From Leptolyngbya sp. BC1307 (GTDB taxonomy: Bacteria > Cyanobacteriota > Cyanobacteriia > Phormidesmidales > Phormidesmidaceae): a stretch of 64,000 nucleotides of DNA. Location of the stretch: assembly GCF_002286735.1 (NCBI RefSeq), contig NZ_NRTA01000019.1, positions 1-64,000 on the forward strand. Direction: 5' to 3'. The position numbers and the translations under genes are program-made. The notes under the pieces are model-generated. The model was not told where the DNA came from. It did not search any database and was given only the letters and a program-made list of their open reading frames with translations. Below, in pieces: positions 43,101 to 51,257 of this stretch; the stretch's first letter is position 1; each line of letters starts with the position of its first letter.

Positions 43101-46100
43101 ATGGTTCAAGAGCTTGATCGTACCCGGTCTAAGAGTCCTTTCCCGGAAGCAGCGCCTGCGGCCTATCCGGTGTTTTACCGTACCTATAGCCGTCGGTCGG
43201 AAGAAGGCAGGCGAGAGACCTGGCAGGAAGTGTGCGATCGCACCCTCAAAGGCTTAGTCGAACTCGGTCAGCTCACCGATGAAGAGCGCGACCTGGTGGC
43301 GAAAATGCAGCAGACTTTAAAAGCCATGCCCTCTGGCCGCTGGCTGTGGGTAGGCGGCACCGACTGGAGCAAAAATCCCAAAAATTTTTCAGGTGCTTAC
43401 AACTGCACCAGCACCAACGTCGTCGATTGGCGCGCCTTTGGCCTGATGATGGACTTGGCAATGATGGGCTGCGGTACGGGCGCGGTACTGGAGCCCAAAT
43501 ACATCAACCAACTCCCCAAAATACGCAACAAAATTACTGTAACCATGCGCGGTGGCGTCGGCCAGACCCCTGCCGCTCAGCGCCGGGAAGAGGCAGAAAT
43601 TAAGGTAGACGAGGCCAATAACCGCGTCGAAATCATCGCAGGCGACAGCCGTCAGGGCTGGGTGAAGTCTTACCAAACCCTGCTAGAGCTTTCGACCGAT
43701 GAGCGCTTTGATGGCGAAGTGGAAGCGATTGTTGACCTGAGCGATATCCGTCCGGCAGGGGAGCGGCTTAAGGGATTTGGCGGTATGGCCAATCCGGTAA
43801 AGCTACCTGAGCTGTACGAGCACTGCGTCAAAATTTTGAATGCGGCTATCGGTCGTCAGCTCAACTCGATTGAATGCTGTCTGCTAATCGATGAAGCTGC
43901 AGCCTGCGTGGTCGCCGGTAACATTCGGCGCTGCCTCCCGGAAGATGCACTCGTGCATACAGAAAAAGGGTTGGTTCCGATCAAAGATGTCCAGATTGGC
44001 GATCGCGTCCAAACACCGCTTGGCTACCGCCGGGTGACTAACAAATTCGACCAGGGCCAGCAGGACGTTTATGAGATAGAGACCAACGGCCCTCATCCTC
44101 GGGCAACACTGAATCATCGGATTGCAGTGTTCGCAAATGCTAGCGGCCAGATTGAATGGAAGCTGTTATCTGAGCTAGCTGAGGGCGATCGCCTGATGCA
44201 CAGCCATCAGATTCTGACTGGGACGGTCACTCACCTACCCGCTGACACAACATCTGAGCGACCAGAACCAAGTCGAACGGCTAAGGATATTCGTATTCCT
44301 GAGCTAACGCCGACCGTAGCCTGGCTGATTGGATTCACCCACGGAGATGGTTATGTCGCACTAGGTCGTAACAAGCACGACAAGCCGTATGGTCGGGTGG
44401 AATGGGCTATGAATGAGCGCGATCAAGGCGCAAGCTTACTGCCTCAGTTGCGCTCCAAGATAGATGATGCACTGTCTGAGTTTGGACTTAGTGCTACACA
44501 TGGCAGCGTTAAAGGAGAAAATACGGCTAAGTCAGTCTGCTCTAGCATTCGACTAGCTGAATATTTTCATGCCCATATTAAACAAGCTCAGCAGCCGCTT
44601 GAAGTACCCAGTTTCATCTTGCAGGGTTCTGTAGATGTCAGGGCGGCTTACCTAGCTGGTCTGATGGATGGCGATGGCGCAGCTAACAATCGTCCACCGC
44701 ACTTGTTGACCAGCGTTTATCGTAATTTCGTTCGTCAGGTTGCAGCCGTTCTCTCTAGCCTGGGCATTGCTGGACGCATTTCGACTATCGTCCCTGACAA
44801 TGTACGCTGGCAACCCAAGTACAATCTCATGCTGCCTGCTCTAAAGCAGCAATATAGTGCGCTGATTGCGCCGCATTCTGCGAAAGGGCAGATCCGTATC
44901 GGGCTCAAGATGTATGGCTTTACGTTGAGTGGTGCAATGATGCGCGCAGCCTATTCTTACAGCGAAATGCGGGAGATGGGTTTTCAAGGTAGCCATAGTG
45001 TTGATTCCAACTACGAGCGCTATATTGCCGAAGCTGACCTGGATTTAGACGTACCTATCACAGCAAAAGGATTGGGTAGCTATGATCATGTGCAAACTTA
45101 CGATATAGAAGTTGAAGAAGCCCACTGCTTTTATTGCGATGGCTACCTAACTCACAACAGCGCGGGGATGAGGCAGTTCGACAGCAACGATGATGTCGCC
45201 ACTGGCGCAAAAGAAAACCTCTGGCAGCAGGATGAAAGCGGCAACTGGCGAATTGACCCTACTCGCGATGCGCTGCGAATGGCGAACCATACTCGGGTAT
45301 TTCATGAAAAGCCCTCGAAAGCAGAAGTCTTGACGGCTGTACAAAAGCAGTTTCAGTCAGGCGAAGGGGCTATTCAGTGGGCGGGTGAAGCTGAGCGTAG
45401 GGCGCAGGGTAAAGGACGATACGGTCTGAATCCTTGTGTGACTGCTGATACGTGGGTACATACCGGTGATGGCCCCAGGCAGGTAAAAGATCTGATCGGT
45501 CAGCAGCATGGAACTTATATAAACGGAGAGCTATTTAGCACGACAGTAGAGGGGTTCTTCTTTTCAGGCGAAAAGCCGGTTGTGAAGCTGGTGACGCAAG
45601 AAGGGTTTGAGCTGCGGCTGACTGAGAACCATCGCGTTTTGAAAGTAACCGCGCAGACTCAGAAGAAGCAGTACACCGAGTGGGTGAATGCGGGCGAACT
45701 TTGCTCAGGCGATTATATAGTGCTGCACGACCATCGCGAGCTTCAGGCTTGGGAGGGCGCTGGTAGCCATGATGAAGGCTGGTTGCTGGGTAGCCTGGTG
45801 GGAGATGGTAGCTTGACAAAGACTCAGTGGAATGACGTTGGGCTGCTGCGCTACTGGGAAGATTCTTCAGATGAGATGAGTCGATATGCTGTTCAGCTTT
45901 TGGAGACGGCAGTTGGTTACGCCCGGAGAACATCAGAAGTTCACTATCACAAGCAGCTCAAGCATCGCGTCATCAACTCTACGGGCTTAGCAAAGTTAGC
46001 CGCTACCTTCGAGATCACTCAGGGCAGTAAGAATATTGGTCAAGCAGTCGAACAGGGCAGCTACGACTTCTACTGCGGTTTTCTAAAAGGATTGTTTGAT

Positions 46101-47618
46101 GCAGATGGCAGCGTACAGGGAACGCAGCTTAAAGGCATTAGCGTTCGGCTGGCACAGAGCAATTTGCCTAACTTGCAGGCTGTTCAGAGAATGCTGGCCC
46201 GATTGGGAATCATTTCTAAAATTTATCAGGAGCGACGACCTGAAGGATATCGGATGCTGCCGGATACTCAGCGACAACCTGCTGAGTACCTGTGCAAAGC
46301 TCAGCACGAACTAGTGATTAGCAAGGATAACCTCTATCATTTCCAGCAAATCGTTGGCTTCCGAGAGCCGCAAAAGTCAGCAAAGCTAGACGAACTGCTC
46401 GGCGGTTACAAGCGCAGATTAAACAGAGAGCGCTTTACGGCAACTGTAGAATCTGTTGAGGCTGACGGGGTTGAGAAAGTCTACGACTGTACTGTGCCTG
46501 GGCCATCGTGCTTCGATGCAAATGGTCTGGTCGCTCATAATTGTGGAGAAATTATTGGGCAGGATTTTCACTGTAATTTGGCCGAAATTCACCTGAACCA
46601 GCTTCATCCGAAAGATGAGCAGGCACAGGCAGAGGCGTTTAAGGCGGGGGCGATCGCCGTTGCTGCCCTTCTCAACCACCAATTCCAGGAATCGCGCTAC
46701 CAGGTGTCCCGCGAAGAAGATCCGATTGTCGGCGTTTCCTTTACGGGTTTCTTTGACTTCTGCGTCAAGGCGTTTGGAGTCGAATGGCTGAACTGGTGGG
46801 AAGACGGCAGGCCCGATACTATGCAGGGAGTAGACTTTAAGAGCCGTGAGCAGGCGTACCTCAGTCGCTGGAAGCAAATTGTGCATGAGACGGTTTGGGA
46901 GTATTGCGATCGCCATCAAATCCGTCGCCCCAACCGCTGCACCACCGTTCAACCGGCGGGCACCAAAAGCCTGCTCACGGGTGCTTCCTCAGGCTGGCAT
47001 CCGCCCAAGGCGCAGCGATTTATCCGCCGGATTACCTTTCGCAAAGATGATCCAGTAGCGCTGGCTTGTTTGGCCTATGGCTATTCGGTGATTCCCTCTC
47101 AGTCTGACAAAGATGAGAACGGCAACTTGCTGAACGATCCGTTTGATCCGCGCTGTACTGAGTGGTTGGTAGAGCTGCCGGTGGAAGTTGACTGGGCGAA
47201 TTTGCCCGGTGCGGATGAAGTCGCGATTGAGAAGTTCTCAGCCCTGGCGCAGTTCGACTTTTATATGCAGGTGCAAAAGCACTATACCGCTCACAATACC
47301 TCCGCCACTGTAGAGCTGAGAGAGCATGAGGTAGAACCTTTGGCTGACCGCATTTATGAGGCGATCGCCAATGACGAAGGCTATATCTCAGCGGCGCTGC
47401 TAGCCCGGTTTGATGACGTGCAGACCTTTCCGCGTTTGCCCTTCGAGCCGATTAGTAAGGAGCGGTATGAGGAAATGTTGGGTGAAGTGCGATCGCGCCG
47501 AACCACCGAAGATTTCCATACTGCGCTAGAAGAACACGATGCGGGCGAGCTTCAGGAAGCCGGCCCCGCAGGCTGTGACTCCGATAAGTGCCTGATGCCA
47601 GAAGCTAAGCCTAGTTAA
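43101..47618 (+). CDS. nrdJ: Adenosylcobalamin-dependent ribonucleoside-triphosphate reductase with two inteins
   Basis: A class II ribonucleotide reductase that makes dNTPs from NTPs using adenosylcobalamin. The precursor is 1505 residues; removing inteins at 278-686 and 779-1147 leaves 727, the normal length. Extein landmarks are Cys102 in SGAYNCTSTNV (redox cysteine), MMDLAMMGCGTGAVLEPKY, AGNIRR/SAGMRQFD, NP/CGEIIGQDFHCNL with the thiyl-radical Cys and its redox partner Cys, TVQPAGTKSLLTGAS, and the C-terminal shuttle pair CDSDKC. The gene stands alone with a terminator after it. I saw no cobalamin riboswitch in its 138-base upstream gap. Activity requires both splicing events. Confidence 0.96.
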   Translation: MVQELDRTRSKSPFPEAAPAAYPVFYRTYSRRSEEGRRETWQEVCDRTLKGLVELGQLTDEERDLVAKMQQTLKAMPSGRWLWVGGTDWSKNPKNFSGAYNCTSTNVVDWRAFGLMMDLAMMGCGTGAVLEPKYINQLPKIRNKITVTMRGGVGQTPAAQRREEAEIKVDEANNRVEIIAGDSRQGWVKSYQTLLELSTDERFDGEVEAIVDLSDIRPAGERLKGFGGMANPVKLPELYEHCVKILNAAIGRQLNSIECCLLIDEAAACVVAGNIRRCLPEDALVHTEKGLVPIKDVQIGDRVQTPLGYRRVTNKFDQGQQDVYEIETNGPHPRATLNHRIAVFANASGQIEWKLLSELAEGDRLMHSHQILTGTVTHLPADTTSERPEPSRTAKDIRIPELTPTVAWLIGFTHGDGYVALGRNKHDKPYGRVEWAMNERDQGASLLPQLRSKIDDALSEFGLSATHGSVKGENTAKSVCSSIRLAEYFHAHIKQAQQPLEVPSFILQGSVDVRAAYLAGLMDGDGAANNRPPHLLTSVYRNFVRQVAAVLSSLGIAGRISTIVPDNVRWQPKYNLMLPALKQQYSALIAPHSAKGQIRIGLKMYGFTLSGAMMRAAYSYSEMREMGFQGSHSVDSNYERYIAEADLDLDVPITAKGLGSYDHVQTYDIEVEEAHCFYCDGYLTHNSAGMRQFDSNDDVATGAKENLWQQDESGNWRIDPTRDALRMANHTRVFHEKPSKAEVLTAVQKQFQSGEGAIQWAGEAERRAQGKGRYGLNPCVTADTWVHTGDGPRQVKDLIGQQHGTYINGELFSTTVEGFFFSGEKPVVKLVTQEGFELRLTENHRVLKVTAQTQKKQYTEWVNAGELCSGDYIVLHDHRELQAWEGAGSHDEGWLLGSLVGDGSLTKTQWNDVGLLRYWEDSSDEMSRYAVQLLETAVGYARRTSEVHYHKQLKHRVINSTGLAKLAATFEITQGSKNIGQAVEQGSYDFYCGFLKGLFDADGSVQGTQLKGISVRLAQSNLPNLQAVQRMLARLGIISKIYQERRPEGYRMLPDTQRQPAEYLCKAQHELVISKDNLYHFQQIVGFREPQKSAKLDELLGGYKRRLNRERFTATVESVEADGVEKVYDCTVPGPSCFDANGLVAHNCGEIIGQDFHCNLAEIHLNQLHPKDEQAQAEAFKAGAIAVAALLNHQFQESRYQVSREEDPIVGVSFTGFFDFCVKAFGVEWLNWWEDGRPDTMQGVDFKSREQAYLSRWKQIVHETVWEYCDRHQIRRPNRCTTVQPAGTKSLLTGASSGWHPPKAQRFIRRITFRKDDPVALACLAYGYSVIPSQSDKDENGNLLNDPFDPRCTEWLVELPVEVDWANLPGADEVAIEKFSALAQFDFYMQVQKHYTAHNTSATVELREHEVEPLADRIYEAIANDEGYISAALLARFDDVQTFPRLPFEPISKERYEEMLGEVRSRRTTEDFHTALEEHDAGELQEAGPAGCDSDKCLMPEAKPS
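43932..45158 (+). other. Intein 1 in NrdJ (409 residues, LAGLIDADG type)
   Basis: Spans precursor residues 278-686. Block A begins Cys278 (CLPEDALVHTEKG), and the Hint-like segment GDRVQTPLGYRRV follows. Block B is ATLNHRIAVF. The homing endonuclease has two LAGLIDADG motifs, WLIGFTHGDGYVAL and AYLAGLMDGDGAANN, with acidic residues present. The C-terminus has YDIEVEEAHCFYCDGYLTHN, ending His-Asn, and the next extein residue is Ser. All residues needed for splicing (Cys1, block B His, terminal His-Asn, +1 Ser) are visible. The insertion site AGNIRR/SA is a conserved RNR position. Confidence 0.92.
45435..46541 (+). other. Intein 2 in NrdJ (369 residues, LAGLIDADG type)
   Basis: Spans precursor residues 779-1147. 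It begins Cys779 (CVTADTWVHTGDGPRQVKDL). Block B is LTENHRVLKVT. The endonuclease motifs are WLLGSLVGDGSLTK and FYCGFLKGLFDADGSVQG. It ends VYDCTVPGPSCFDANGLVAH then Asn, with penultimate His and +1 Cys. The insertion is between Pro and Cys of NPCGEI, so the +1 splicing nucleophile is itself the predicted catalytic thiyl-radical cysteine. It shows little obvious similarity to intein 1 outside the shared fold, suggesting separate acquisitions. Confidence 0.92.
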
Positions 47619-47791: not shown

Positions 47792-48478
47792 GTGCAGTCG
47801 ATCTACTGGTTTTGCTTTGTCATTGGCGGTGCCTTTGTCGCCCTCGGGGTGGTCGGCGGCGGCGAACTTTTCGATGACTTTGATGCAGATACTGACTTTG
47901 ATATTGATGCCGATGCTGATCTAGACGCCGATGCTGACTTTGATGCCGATGCCGACAGCGATACAGACCTTCAGGTAGACACTGACGTTGACCTGATGCG
48001 GTCTGCCCACAGACGGCGGCGTTTGCCTGGTTGGCTATCTATTTTTATCAGCTTCAAGTTTTGGACGTTTGGCGGCTGCTTTTTTGGCCTGACCGGTTTG
48101 CTGCTGAGCGCTGTAGACCCGACGCCGTCTCCGACTGCTGTGTTTGCGATCGCCCTGGCAATGGGCCTTGTGTGCGGTGTGGCGCTGGTAAGTGCTTTAC
48201 GCAGTCTGAAAAGTCGCAAGGTCGATAGCCTGGTGCGCAATGAAGACTTTGCTGGGCTGATTGGCACGGTAGAGCTGCCGTTTGATGCTAAAACCAAAGG
48301 CAAAGTGATTTTGGAAGTGGGCGGGAGCACGCTGCATCTGGTGGCGCAGACTGATGAAGAGAGAGACTTTCGGCCAGGGGAGCCGATTTTAGTAGTTGGT
48401 CGCAGCCAGAACCGACTGTGGGTTGTCTCGGCAGAAAATCACCTGGAACCCGCTGATAGTTCTAACAGCGCAGGCTGA
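47792..48478 (+). CDS. NfeD-like membrane protein with acidic Asp-repeat segment
   Basis: A 228-residue protein from a GTG start. An N-terminal hydrophobic helix (about 4-22) is followed by an Asp/Ala repeat (about 28-67), then two membrane helices (about 84-110 and 117-135) and a C-terminal OB-like NfeD domain (GLIGTVELPFDAKTKGKVIL near 159-178). NfeD proteins pair with flotillin/stomatin proteins, and two flotillin-like genes follow 74 bases downstream, which strongly supports the call. The acidic segment could bind Ca2+ or other cations; this is inference from composition. Confidence 0.82.
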   Translation: MQSIYWFCFVIGGAFVALGVVGGGELFDDFDADTDFDIDADADLDADADFDADADSDTDLQVDTDVDLMRSAHRRRRLPGWLSIFISFKFWTFGGCFFGLTGLLLSAVDPTPSPTAVFAIALAMGLVCGVALVSALRSLKSRKVDSLVRNEDFAGLIGTVELPFDAKTKGKVILEVGGSTLHLVAQTDEERDFRPGEPILVVGRSQNRLWVVSAENHLEPADSSNSAG

Positions 48479-48552
48479 ACAAGCGACACCGCAAAAGCCG
48501 ACTTCTCTATTTACCCAATCTACGGATTACCTAATCTACGGAGCTAACTATC

Positions 48553-49914
48553 GTGAGTGAATCGACTTTTTCAGAGGCTGAGCAGCCCGTTCTACTGGCT
48601 CAAGTTAGCCAGCCTGGGCAACTGGCCGCGCAGCCTTTGAATACTAGCGGCATCCTGGGCGCTGGGGCGGTTACGATTGGGCTGGTGGGGATAGTGGCGG
48701 CGATCGCCCTGCTCAAAGCCTCCCTCAAAATTTGTAAGCCCAACGAAATCTTGATTATTTCAGGGCGCAAATACAAGCAGGCAGGCAGCAAGGCCGTAGG
48801 CTACCGGGTGATATTCGGCGGTAGGGCGTTTGTGCTGCCAATTATCGAGCGGGTGGAGCGGATGGATATGACTACCATGCCGATCCCGGTAGAGGTGAAT
48901 AACTCGTACGCAAAAGGGGGGACGCCGCTGAATATTCAGGCGATCGCCAACGTCAAAGTCTCCAGCCAGCCCAACATTGCCGGTAATGCGATTGAGCGAT
49001 TTTTAGGCCGCAATCAGTCCGAAATTCGCCGGGTCGTGCGCGAAACCTTAGAAGGTAATCTGCGCGGCGTGGTCGCCAACCTCACTCCCCAGCAGGTAAA
49101 CGAAGATCGGCTCAACTTTGCCGAGCGCATTGCCGACGATGTAGACCGCGACCTGAACAAACTGGGACTGCACCTGGACACGCTCAAAGTGCAAAGCGTC
49201 ACCGACGACGTGGGCTACCTTAGCTCCATCGGTCGCCGCCAGATTGCCAAGATTATTCGCGATGCCGAAATTGCTGAAGCGGTTGCCCTTGGTGAAGCTG
49301 AGCGCATAGAAGCCGACTGCCAAAAGCGAGCAGAGATGTTTCAGTCGCAGGCACTGACCATTATTCAAAGCAAGCAAAACGAGCTGCGCAAAATTAAAGC
49401 AGAGCTGGATCAGCGCTCCAAATCTGAAGAAGAGCGTACCGCCGCCGCTGCCAAAGAAGCGCGGGCCAGGGCTGAGCAGCAATTGCAGTCAGTCCGAGCC
49501 AGGCTAGAACGACTGCGTCTGCAAGCCGATCAGGTTTTACCGGCTGAAGCGCATAAAGAGGCTCAGTTTTTACAGGCTAAAGGAGACGCCGCTGAATTTG
49601 CTGAAAACGCTAAGGCTGCGGCTTTGGTGAATGAAATGCTGGCTCAGGTATGGCAGGAAACGGGAGCCGACACTACCCAGATTTTCTTACTTCAGCAAAT
49701 TGACACCATCCTCAAAGAAGCAGCGACCGTTCCCCACCGCTTAAAGCTAGAAAATATCAACGTGATTGATAACGGCGACGGTAAAGCGATCGCCAGCCTG
49801 GCCAACGTTTATCCCGAAGTCATCAAGCAGTTTTTGGCTCAGGTAGAGCAAACCCTTGGCATTGATGTAATCGGTACGCTCAGTCATCGCCAGCCAACTG
49901 CCACTAAGTCATAG
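48553..49914 (+). CDS. Flotillin-like SPFH domain protein (first of two)
   Basis: A 453-residue protein starting at GTG. A hydrophobic helix (about 32-55, GAVTIGLVGIVAAIALLKAS) anchors an SPFH domain (about 65-230), with CKPNEILIISGRKYK and VNEDRLNFAERIADDVDRDL. A long Ala/Glu/Arg-rich coiled coil (about 230-360) drives oligomerisation. The C-terminus (ETGADTTQIFLLQQID) matches flotillins. Such proteins organise membrane microdomains and fluidity. It lies between the NfeD-like gene and a second flotillin-like gene in the same direction, indicating an operon. Confidence 0.9.
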   Translation: MSESTFSEAEQPVLLAQVSQPGQLAAQPLNTSGILGAGAVTIGLVGIVAAIALLKASLKICKPNEILIISGRKYKQAGSKAVGYRVIFGGRAFVLPIIERVERMDMTTMPIPVEVNNSYAKGGTPLNIQAIANVKVSSQPNIAGNAIERFLGRNQSEIRRVVRETLEGNLRGVVANLTPQQVNEDRLNFAERIADDVDRDLNKLGLHLDTLKVQSVTDDVGYLSSIGRRQIAKIIRDAEIAEAVALGEAERIEADCQKRAEMFQSQALTIIQSKQNELRKIKAELDQRSKSEEERTAAAAKEARARAEQQLQSVRARLERLRLQADQVLPAEAHKEAQFLQAKGDAAEFAENAKAAALVNEMLAQVWQETGADTTQIFLLQQIDTILKEAATVPHRLKLENINVIDNGDGKAIASLANVYPEVIKQFLAQVEQTLGIDVIGTLSHRQPTATKS

Positions 49915-49976
49915 CGCGCCCCTATTGATTGCACGCAGATAGATCCCTTCAAAATCCCTATCAGGAGAATTTAACG

Positions 49977-51257
49977 ATGACCAGCTTTATTCTTTTAATT
50001 ATGGCTCTGGCCTCGGGCTCTGGCTTTTTGATGATTAAAAATCTCTACTACATTTGCCAGCCGAACGAGGTTTTGATCTTTGCAGGGGGGAGTCAGCGGT
50101 CGGGCGATCGCAAAGTCGGCTATCGCCTGGTCAAAGGCGGCAGCAGCATTCGCACCCCGCTGCTAGAAAAGGTGATGCGCATGAACCTCACCAATATGAT
50201 CATTGAGCTGAAGGTCTCTAATGCCTACTCCAAAGGCGGCATTCCGCTACAGGTAGATGGGGTGGCTAACATCAAAATCGCTGGGGAAGAGCCGACGATT
50301 CATAACGCCATCGAAAGGCTGCTAGGCAAGCCGCGCCAAGAGATTGAAAAAATTGCCAAGGAAACCTTAGAAGGCAATCTGCGAGGCGTATTAGCTAGCC
50401 TCACGCCTGAGCAGGTGAACGAAGACAAAATCGCCTTTGCCAAAAGCCTGCTCGATGAAGCGGAAGAAGATCTCGAAAAGCTGGGCCTGGTGCTCGATAC
50501 GCTGCAAATCCAAAATATTTCTGACGATGTCCGCTATCTCGACTCGATTGGCCGCAAGCAGCAGGCCGACCTTCAGCGCGATGCCCGCATTGCCGAAGCC
50601 GAAGCCAAAGCTGAGTCTGCTGTACAAACTGCCGAAAACAAAAAAATCACTGCCGTTCGTCGTTTGGAGCGCGACATCGGCATTTCTCAGGCTGCTGCTG
50701 AGCAAAGAACGCAGGATGCCCTGACCATGCGCGCTGCGGTCGTCGCTGAGGCCGAAGCTGAGATTGCCGCTGAGCTGGCCCGAATTCAGGCGGACGTGCC
50801 GGTGCAGGAGGAGCGGATTAAGCAAGTGATAGAGCAGCTCAAAGCCGATGTGATTGCGCCTGCAGAAGCTGACTGTCAGCGAGCGATCGCCCAAGCCAAA
50901 GGTAACGCTGCCACCATTATCGAAGCAGGCAAAGCCCAGGCTGAAGGCACGCAGCGACTCGCTGAATCTTGGGTCGCCGCTGGAGACAATGCTCGCGACA
51001 TCTTTTTGCTCCAGAAGCTGGAAGGACTGCTCAATACCCTTTCGACGACGGTACCTGACATATCGGTTAAGAATGTGACGGTAATTGATACGCAGTCAGG
51101 CAACCTGGCGACTCAAGCGGCTGCCTTTATGACTCAGCTGAAGCAAACCTCGGGAGTAGATGTCGCCAGCGCAATTAACGGACTCTCTCGGTCTAGCGAC
51201 CACAACGGCGGGTTGCCTAACCTGCCTGCTGCTAGTGAAGAATCAGCGACATCGTAA
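49977..51257 (+). CDS. Flotillin-like SPFH domain protein (second of two)
   Basis: A 426-residue protein from the ATG at 49977, chosen because AGGAG lies at about -15 to -11 and the membrane helix (FILLIMALASGSGFLMI) then starts at residue 4; the frame is open back to 49929. The SPFH domain has CQPNEVLIFAGG and ETLEGNLRGVLASLTPEQVN, closely resembling the first flotillin. The coiled-coil region is rich in AEAEA-type repeats. Two diverged flotillin paralogues in tandem suggest a hetero-oligomeric scaffold together with the NfeD-like protein. Confidence 0.9.
   Translation: MTSFILLIMALASGSGFLMIKNLYYICQPNEVLIFAGGSQRSGDRKVGYRLVKGGSSIRTPLLEKVMRMNLTNMIIELKVSNAYSKGGIPLQVDGVANIKIAGEEPTIHNAIERLLGKPRQEIEKIAKETLEGNLRGVLASLTPEQVNEDKIAFAKSLLDEAEEDLEKLGLVLDTLQIQNISDDVRYLDSIGRKQQADLQRDARIAEAEAKAESAVQTAENKKITAVRRLERDIGISQAAAEQRTQDALTMRAAVVAEAEAEIAAELARIQADVPVQEERIKQVIEQLKADVIAPAEADCQRAIAQAKGNAATIIEAGKAQAEGTQRLAESWVAAGDNARDIFLLQKLEGLLNTLSTTVPDISVKNVTVIDTQSGNLATQAAAFMTQLKQTSGVDVASAINGLSRSSDHNGGLPNLPAASEESATS

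Follow-up and report, generated by a model that had tools for sequence, protein, structure and literature searches.

Two LAGLIDADG inteins at fixed sites in the B12-dependent ribonucleotide reductase gene of Leptolyngbya sp. BC1307

The ribonucleotide reductase (RNR) gene of Anabaena PCC 7120 reportedly carries an intein that splices in Escherichia coli; the enzyme is the same as that considered here, with one intein against two in the present gene. For Trichodesmium RNR, PMC1635734 gives four inteins, and a 2003 paper on these inteins is cited in PMC4649490. The study of the B12-dependent Anabaena PCC 7120 enzyme (Gleason and Olszewski 2002) is cited in PMC12702839. For the R2 protein of Aquifex, PMC8772380 reports that an active-site intein went with a raised iron content and a doubling of activity. 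The gene analysed here, nrdJ in a 64,000-nucleotide stretch of Leptolyngbya sp. BC1307 (the window), resembles that of Trichodesmium in being a cyanobacterial RNR gene with several inteins; it has two and no intron, whereas the Trichodesmium RNR has four inteins (PMC1635734). Because a multi-intein cyanobacterial RNR has been published there, the two-intein arrangement is one already known, and the initial annotation overrated its novelty: several inteins in one such gene were already in print in the 2003 paper, as far as the citing text indicates.

The window nrdJ encodes an adenosylcobalamin-dependent ribonucleoside-triphosphate reductase (RTPR, the monomeric class II RNR) with two in-frame inteins (Table 1). 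The initial annotation had proposed two inteins in one B12-dependent RNR gene, and its coordinates and lengths proved exact to the residue. Model TIGR02505 (curated cut-off 340.05 bits) matches the precursor at 704.6 bits in three stretches. After excision of both inteins the extein (727 amino acids, 82.0 kDa) gives a single match of 749.2 bits that spans residues 13-721. Since excision turns three RTPR stretches into one, the junctions are exact, and the extein reads smoothly across them, as had been claimed. The dimeric-type model NrdJ_Z fits far worse (32.9 bits against a cut-off of 399.95).

The solved structure used for comparison was that of Lactobacillus leichmannii RTPR (PDB 1L1L). On this structure, the insertion point of intein 1 falls between Arg319 and Ser320, and the Cys+1 of intein 2 aligns with Cys408, which we take to be the thiyl-radical cysteine. 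The catalytic cysteines of RTPR are presumably 119, 408, 419 and a C-terminal pair (L. leichmannii numbering); in the window enzyme the equivalents of Cys408 and Cys419 are aligned and a C-terminal CDSDKC is present, while the Cys119 region is not cleanly aligned. Both inteins are lower in G+C (0.506 and 0.508) than the extein parts are (0.546-0.561).

Table 1. Features of the nrdJ precursor gene, in window coordinates
Feature	Coordinates	Strand	Evidence
nrdJ precursor gene, 1505 aa, ATG start	43101..47618	+	TIGR02505 E 1.3e-211; PDB 1L1L E 9.6e-29
N-extein, 277 aa, ending ...VVAGNIRR	43101..43931	+	residues, TIGR02505 match
Intein 1 (site a, Arg/Ser bond), 409 aa, aa 278-686, LAGLIDADG endonuclease	43932..45158	+	residues, HMMs, fold
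Intein 1 block B, T59-L-N-H62	44106..44117	+	T59 and H62 invariant in 11/11 and 16/16 site-a inteins (two alignments)
Intein 1 first LAGLIDADG motif, LIGFTHGDG (Asp139)	44325..44351	+	D139 invariant in 11/11 and 16/16
Intein 1 second LAGLIDADG motif, LAGLMDGDG (Asp248)	44652..44678	+	D248 invariant in 11/11 and 16/16
Middle extein, 92 aa, Ser+1 ... NP	45159..45434	+	residues, TIGR02505 match
Intein 2 (site b, Pro/Cys bond), 369 aa, aa 779-1147, LAGLIDADG endonuclease	45435..46541	+	residues, HMMs, fold
Intein 2 block B, T63-E-N-H66	45621..45632	+	T63 and H66 invariant in 12/12 and 18/18 site-b inteins
Intein 2 first LAGLIDADG motif, LLGSLVGDG (Asp124)	45783..45809	+	D124 invariant in 12/12 and 18/18
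Intein 2 second LAGLIDADG motif, LKGLFDADG (Asp224)	46083..46109	+	D224 invariant in 12/12; at least 90% in 18
C-extein, 358 aa, first residue Cys+1 of intein 2, aligned with RTPR Cys408	46542..47618	+	1L1L alignment

Intein 1 runs from Cys1 to His408-Asn409 and is followed by Ser+1; intein 2 runs from Cys1 to His368-Asn369 and is followed by Cys+1. The Cys start, block B His, two LAGLIDADG motifs and His-Asn end listed in the initial annotation were all found in both, and every recognised splicing residue is present. An aspartate occupies the eighth position of each LAGLIDADG motif (four of four intact). Across the 11 site-a and 12 site-b inteins of the family there is no variation at Cys1, at the block B Thr and His, at the terminal Asn or at the LAGLIDADG aspartates. 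The penultimate His is replaced by Ser in two of the 11 site-a inteins; intein 1 of the window keeps it.

The resemblance of the two segments to inteins is not a chance one: LAGLIDADG_3 exceeds its Pfam cut-off in both inteins (E 1.1e-9 for intein 1 and 7.2e-24 for intein 2), as does NCBIfam intein_Cterm (15.9 and 19.6 respectively, cut-off 15.6). NCBIfam intein_Nterm is above cut-off only in intein 2, and Pfam Intein_splicing (cut-off 35.8 bits) is passed by intein 2 at 44.9 and not by intein 1, at 23.8. AlphaFold models have a mean pLDDT of 85.6 for intein 1 (from 16 aligned sequences) and 90.3 for intein 2 (from 18). Their best Foldseek matches in the PDB are the TliVMA intein 7qss (intein 1, E 4.1e-19) and 7qsu (intein 2, E 1.1e-17); PI-PfuI is among the top three for both, and PI-SceI is also among the neighbours. 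Inteins of the TliVMA, PI-PfuI and PI-SceI type share the predicted fold of both window inteins, LAGLIDADG endonuclease included, at a sequence identity of just 11-17% in the structural alignments. Both segments are thus predicted to adopt the intein (Hint) fold with a homing endonuclease, and this predicted fold supports the intein status of intein 1, whose Intein_splicing score falls below the cut-off.

Two other observations concern the surroundings and the genome. At 47792-51257 of the window (+ strand), an NfeD-like frame that contains a long repeat rich in Asp (DADADFDADADSD...) lies directly 5' of two adjacent flotillin-like frames, both names being provisional. A dnaB-like gene of the same genome (named by eye; L023 1975-6084, G000:C26) also has two inteins, after ...AMGK and ...MSDLRE, both with a His-Asn end.

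The genome, a draft of 222 contigs rated 99.99% complete, contains one RTPR gene. Searches of it with PF02867 (class I and dimeric class II RNR; 11 of 14 control genomes positive) and PF13597 (class III RNR; six of 14 positive) gave no match. PF02867 does not recognise RTPR itself (none of one here, and Synechococcus elongatus also falls outside its positive controls), so a very divergent RNR might escape the search. The dependence of dNTP supply on splicing, as initially claimed, is supported, short of proof, by the lack of any other RNR in these searches, and the RTPR with its two inteins is probably an essential enzyme.

The genus (seven genomes) includes states of the gene from empty to double. 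Both inteins are present in the window genome (G000) and G001, intein 1 only in G004 and G006, and none in G003 and G005; G002 has neither intein and carries an intron-like insert 6 nt past site b. The separately assembled G001 has the same two-intein gene (intein 1 81% and intein 2 82% identical). A matching sequence, nrdJ of Leptolyngbya foveolarum ULC129bin1 (QBMC01000096.1; L069, which matches G001:C295), has both inteins at the same bonds and differs from the window gene only by sequence divergence (inteins 81-82%, extein 88% identical).

An RTPR match was found in 58 of the 63 genomes of the family. The gene was read in 47 of these, and the other 11 were judged by match and frame (10 single-piece frames of 731-732 amino acids, and G012, which is partial). 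In 34 of the 58 the RTPR gene is uninterrupted, of full length and free of both segments; 24 of these were read and 10 judged by frame, and two belong to the genus of the window genome. Intein-free relatives are collinear with the extein. We rejected the reading of the window gene as one large uninterrupted enzyme, since such intein-free relatives exist. At least one intein is present in 18 of the 58 genomes, two or more in eight, and three in G047 alone; site a is filled in 11, site b in 13 (G057 ends at a contig end) and site c in three. Sites a and b are both filled in six genes, that of the window included. The remaining six genomes without inteins have a partial gene (G012, G030), a broken frame (G036, G061) or an intron-like insert (G002, G045). 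All 12 complete copies of intein b are 369 amino acids long. The site-a inteins of G033 and G047 are of a different lineage, sharing 37-38% identity with that of the window and ending in Ser-Asn.

The third site, c, lies 10 codons after site b (inteins at L036:2807-3814, L038:1661-2668 and L040:1603-2610), so that just 10 extein residues separate two inteins. The site-c intein ends in Gln rather than Asn (TGQ/C), and its +1 Cys aligns with RTPR Cys419. In the genes of G036 (L037 ~1972-1985) and G061 (L048 ~2119-2130), one base is missing relative to relatives, directly after a GCGATCGC (HIP1) site; this frameshift may be a recurrent mutation, recoding or a sequencing error.

An alignment scan of genome contigs with intein 2 matched at least 589 stretches, at least 541 of them encoding relatives. 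Among the 80 matches listed, we examined 69 and set aside 11 non-cyanobacterial ones. The 69 relatives (47-82% identity) all occupy an NP/C site, before CGEI (58), CGEQ (six) or CAEQ (five); judged by this motif, their position corresponds to the radical cysteine in RTPR as well as in other types of RNR, some of them proteobacterial. Among the 57 cyanobacterial loci in this set, a site-a intein was present in the same frame in 16, site a was empty in 31 and was not found in 10. Since a site-a intein accompanies intein b in 16 of 57 of the cyanobacterial loci examined, two inteins per gene are common.

We are confident, on the strength of these sequence comparisons, that the sole RNR gene found in this genome is an RTPR gene with two LAGLIDADG inteins at fixed bonds, which would yield a self-splicing precursor and whose inteins would spread by means of their endonucleases. 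Two rounds of self-splicing most likely convert the 169 kDa precursor into the 82 kDa enzyme, with inteins of 45 and 41 kDa as the predicted excised products. Class 1 inteins use a standard chemistry in which Cys1 attacks, the +1 residue receives the chain and the terminal Asn cyclises. Here, the attack at each N-junction would come from Cys1, the chain would pass to Ser+1 for intein 1 and to Cys+1 for intein 2, and the C-terminal Asn would cyclise with the aid of the neighbouring His. The RTPR should stay inactive until intein 2 is excised, because Cys+1 is the thiyl-radical cysteine and, in the precursor, 369 residues separate it from the Pro that is its neighbour after splicing. By cutting empty nrdJ alleles, the endonuclease domains would spread the inteins. 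Splicing and cleavage, like the essentiality of the enzyme, are what we infer from the sequence.

It could be argued that the inteins splice and that one or both endonucleases are dead, the inteins persisting by descent until they are precisely lost. The tree of intein 1 does not conflict with that of the extein (AU p 0.23 and 0.12, eight carriers), which suggests that intein 1 may be mostly inherited, and in 113 of 114 pairwise comparisons the intein is not significantly more alike than its extein; the reverse, an intein less alike than the extein, was seen in 38 of the 114 at an uncorrected p below 0.05, the pairs being non-independent. Against dead endonucleases, all four catalytic-position aspartates are intact, and the endonuclease parts are under purifying selection (12 genome pairs were run; dN/dS was 0.035-0.084 in the six comparisons where dS stayed under 2, and in the others dS exceeded 2 or was saturated). 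Empty and filled alleles also occur side by side within one genus. The one significant comparison, that of the sister pair G004 and G006, is a clear recent transfer: 101 of 133 fourfold sites are identical in intein 1, whereas the extein has 98 of 216 (p 1.9e-8), and intein 1 has thus probably moved at least once. In this pair no clear co-conversion tract was found beside site a, and the step in similarity is sharp at the intein borders. The trees of intein 2 and the extein reject each other (AU p 0.0004 and 0.0002, 12 carriers), and intein 2 has therefore probably moved between lineages; all these trees were made without G057, the two divergent site-a carriers (G033, G047) and G014, whose extein is interrupted. 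Conservation of the insertion-site DNA is moderate, at percentiles 53, 74 and 54 for a, b and c (2158 windows, 40 genomes). On balance we regard dead endonucleases as unlikely. The initial annotation considered both inteins fully active in splicing and homing; purifying selection and the signals of transfer back this, and we infer that both activities may be retained.

An even less probable reading is that intein 2 serves the host as a conditional switch, with redox state or a metal gating RNR activity. Such gating is conceivable since excision of the intein would expose the radical cysteine in its proper position. The alignment of Cys+1 with Cys408 and the use of the same bond in 69 of 69 relatives examined are in keeping with it, and the Aquifex R2 report (PMC8772380) provides an example of an RNR intein with consequences for the host. 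However, close relatives lack intein 2, and a fixed site is already predicted by homing alone. There is hardly any chance that the gene is an artefact of assembly or gene calling, or a pseudogene. The genome is admittedly a draft, but the 1505 codons are open, with no stops, the extein is conserved throughout and six family genes have this arrangement. Since G001, assembled separately, has the same architecture, an assembly artefact was rejected, as was a pseudogene, on the basis of the relatives that share it. Self-splicing inteins that spread by homing remain our preferred reading.

Several unlike mobile elements occur around the radical cysteine of cyanobacterial RTPR genes: intein b, an intron of group I-like type that starts 6 nt beyond it, and intein c at the Cys419 codon. 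Intron-like inserts follow NPCG in G002, G014 and G045 (L018:5000-5337, L030:3131-4311 and L039:1936-2683; 338, 1181 and 748 nt respectively), with borders GGT/...G/GA, 6 nt downstream of the intein 2 site. The longest (L030) contains a 311-amino-acid frame with a Phage_endo_I match below cut-off; the L039 insert is shorter, and that of L018 lacks the frame entirely. In these three inserts all Rfam matches stayed below the gathering score, and none was to a group I intron model, even with the threshold relaxed to E 5. In the predicted fold, four of 40 pairs are changed on both sides across the three sequences and some others are broken in one. The core resembles that of T4 td, and on the basis of this likeness, the T/...G/ borders and the predicted fold we call the inserts group I-like.

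In the same three genomes the RTPR is in two frames (G002, L018 3592-6405; G014, L030 505-5382; G045, L039 524-3754). The first stops shortly after ...AYLK(E/Q)(R/L)L..., and the second opens with an ATG 37, 37 and 47 nt after the stop, 18-22 residues before YGLNPCG and preceded by a purine-rich, ribosome-site-like stretch (judged by eye). This looks like an enzyme split through its catalytic domain. In a Gloeomargarita-type genus (g29) the halves are unlinked in six of six genomes (G401, G402, G106, G077, G094, G146): they lie at least 85 kb apart on one contig in three and on different contigs in three. In G118 (= G401), whose chromosome measures 3.16 Mb, one half is near 3.00 Mb and the other near 0.58 Mb. 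Both halves were read in three of the six (G401, G402, G106; L120, L125, L154, L156, L158, L159). In these, the N-halves have a ...YLRELL... tail with no split-intein piece, and the C-halves begin MTQAPER...ELDHRMSRYGLNP. Intein b follows in G401 and G402, both found through this intein. The absence of any mobile element at the site in G106 is evidence against the idea that the split requires an element to be there now. The split lies 24-32 codons upstream of the radical cysteine, within the catalytic domain. G069 was rejected as a clean split; its overlapping frames correspond to a frameshift in the same loop.

A split nrdJ is mentioned for a Thermus phage (PMC3653736); in the partial literature collection available, no title or abstract opening concerned a split cyanobacterial RNR. 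That mobile elements caused the RTPR split is speculation. We put forward only tentatively, and with more doubt than belief, that the radical-cysteine stretch is a landing zone whose pressure goes with RTPR splitting, the window gene being an unsplit stage.

On its own, the window nrdJ contributes a clean and undamaged two-intein allele of an enzyme that is probably essential. Because one genus holds the states from empty to double, it serves as a natural experiment in which one can trace and test how inteins enter, leave and home to the only RNR gene. In RTPR the inteins recruit active-site cysteines of the host enzyme as nucleophiles for splicing: the equivalent of Cys408 at site b and that of Cys419 at site c.
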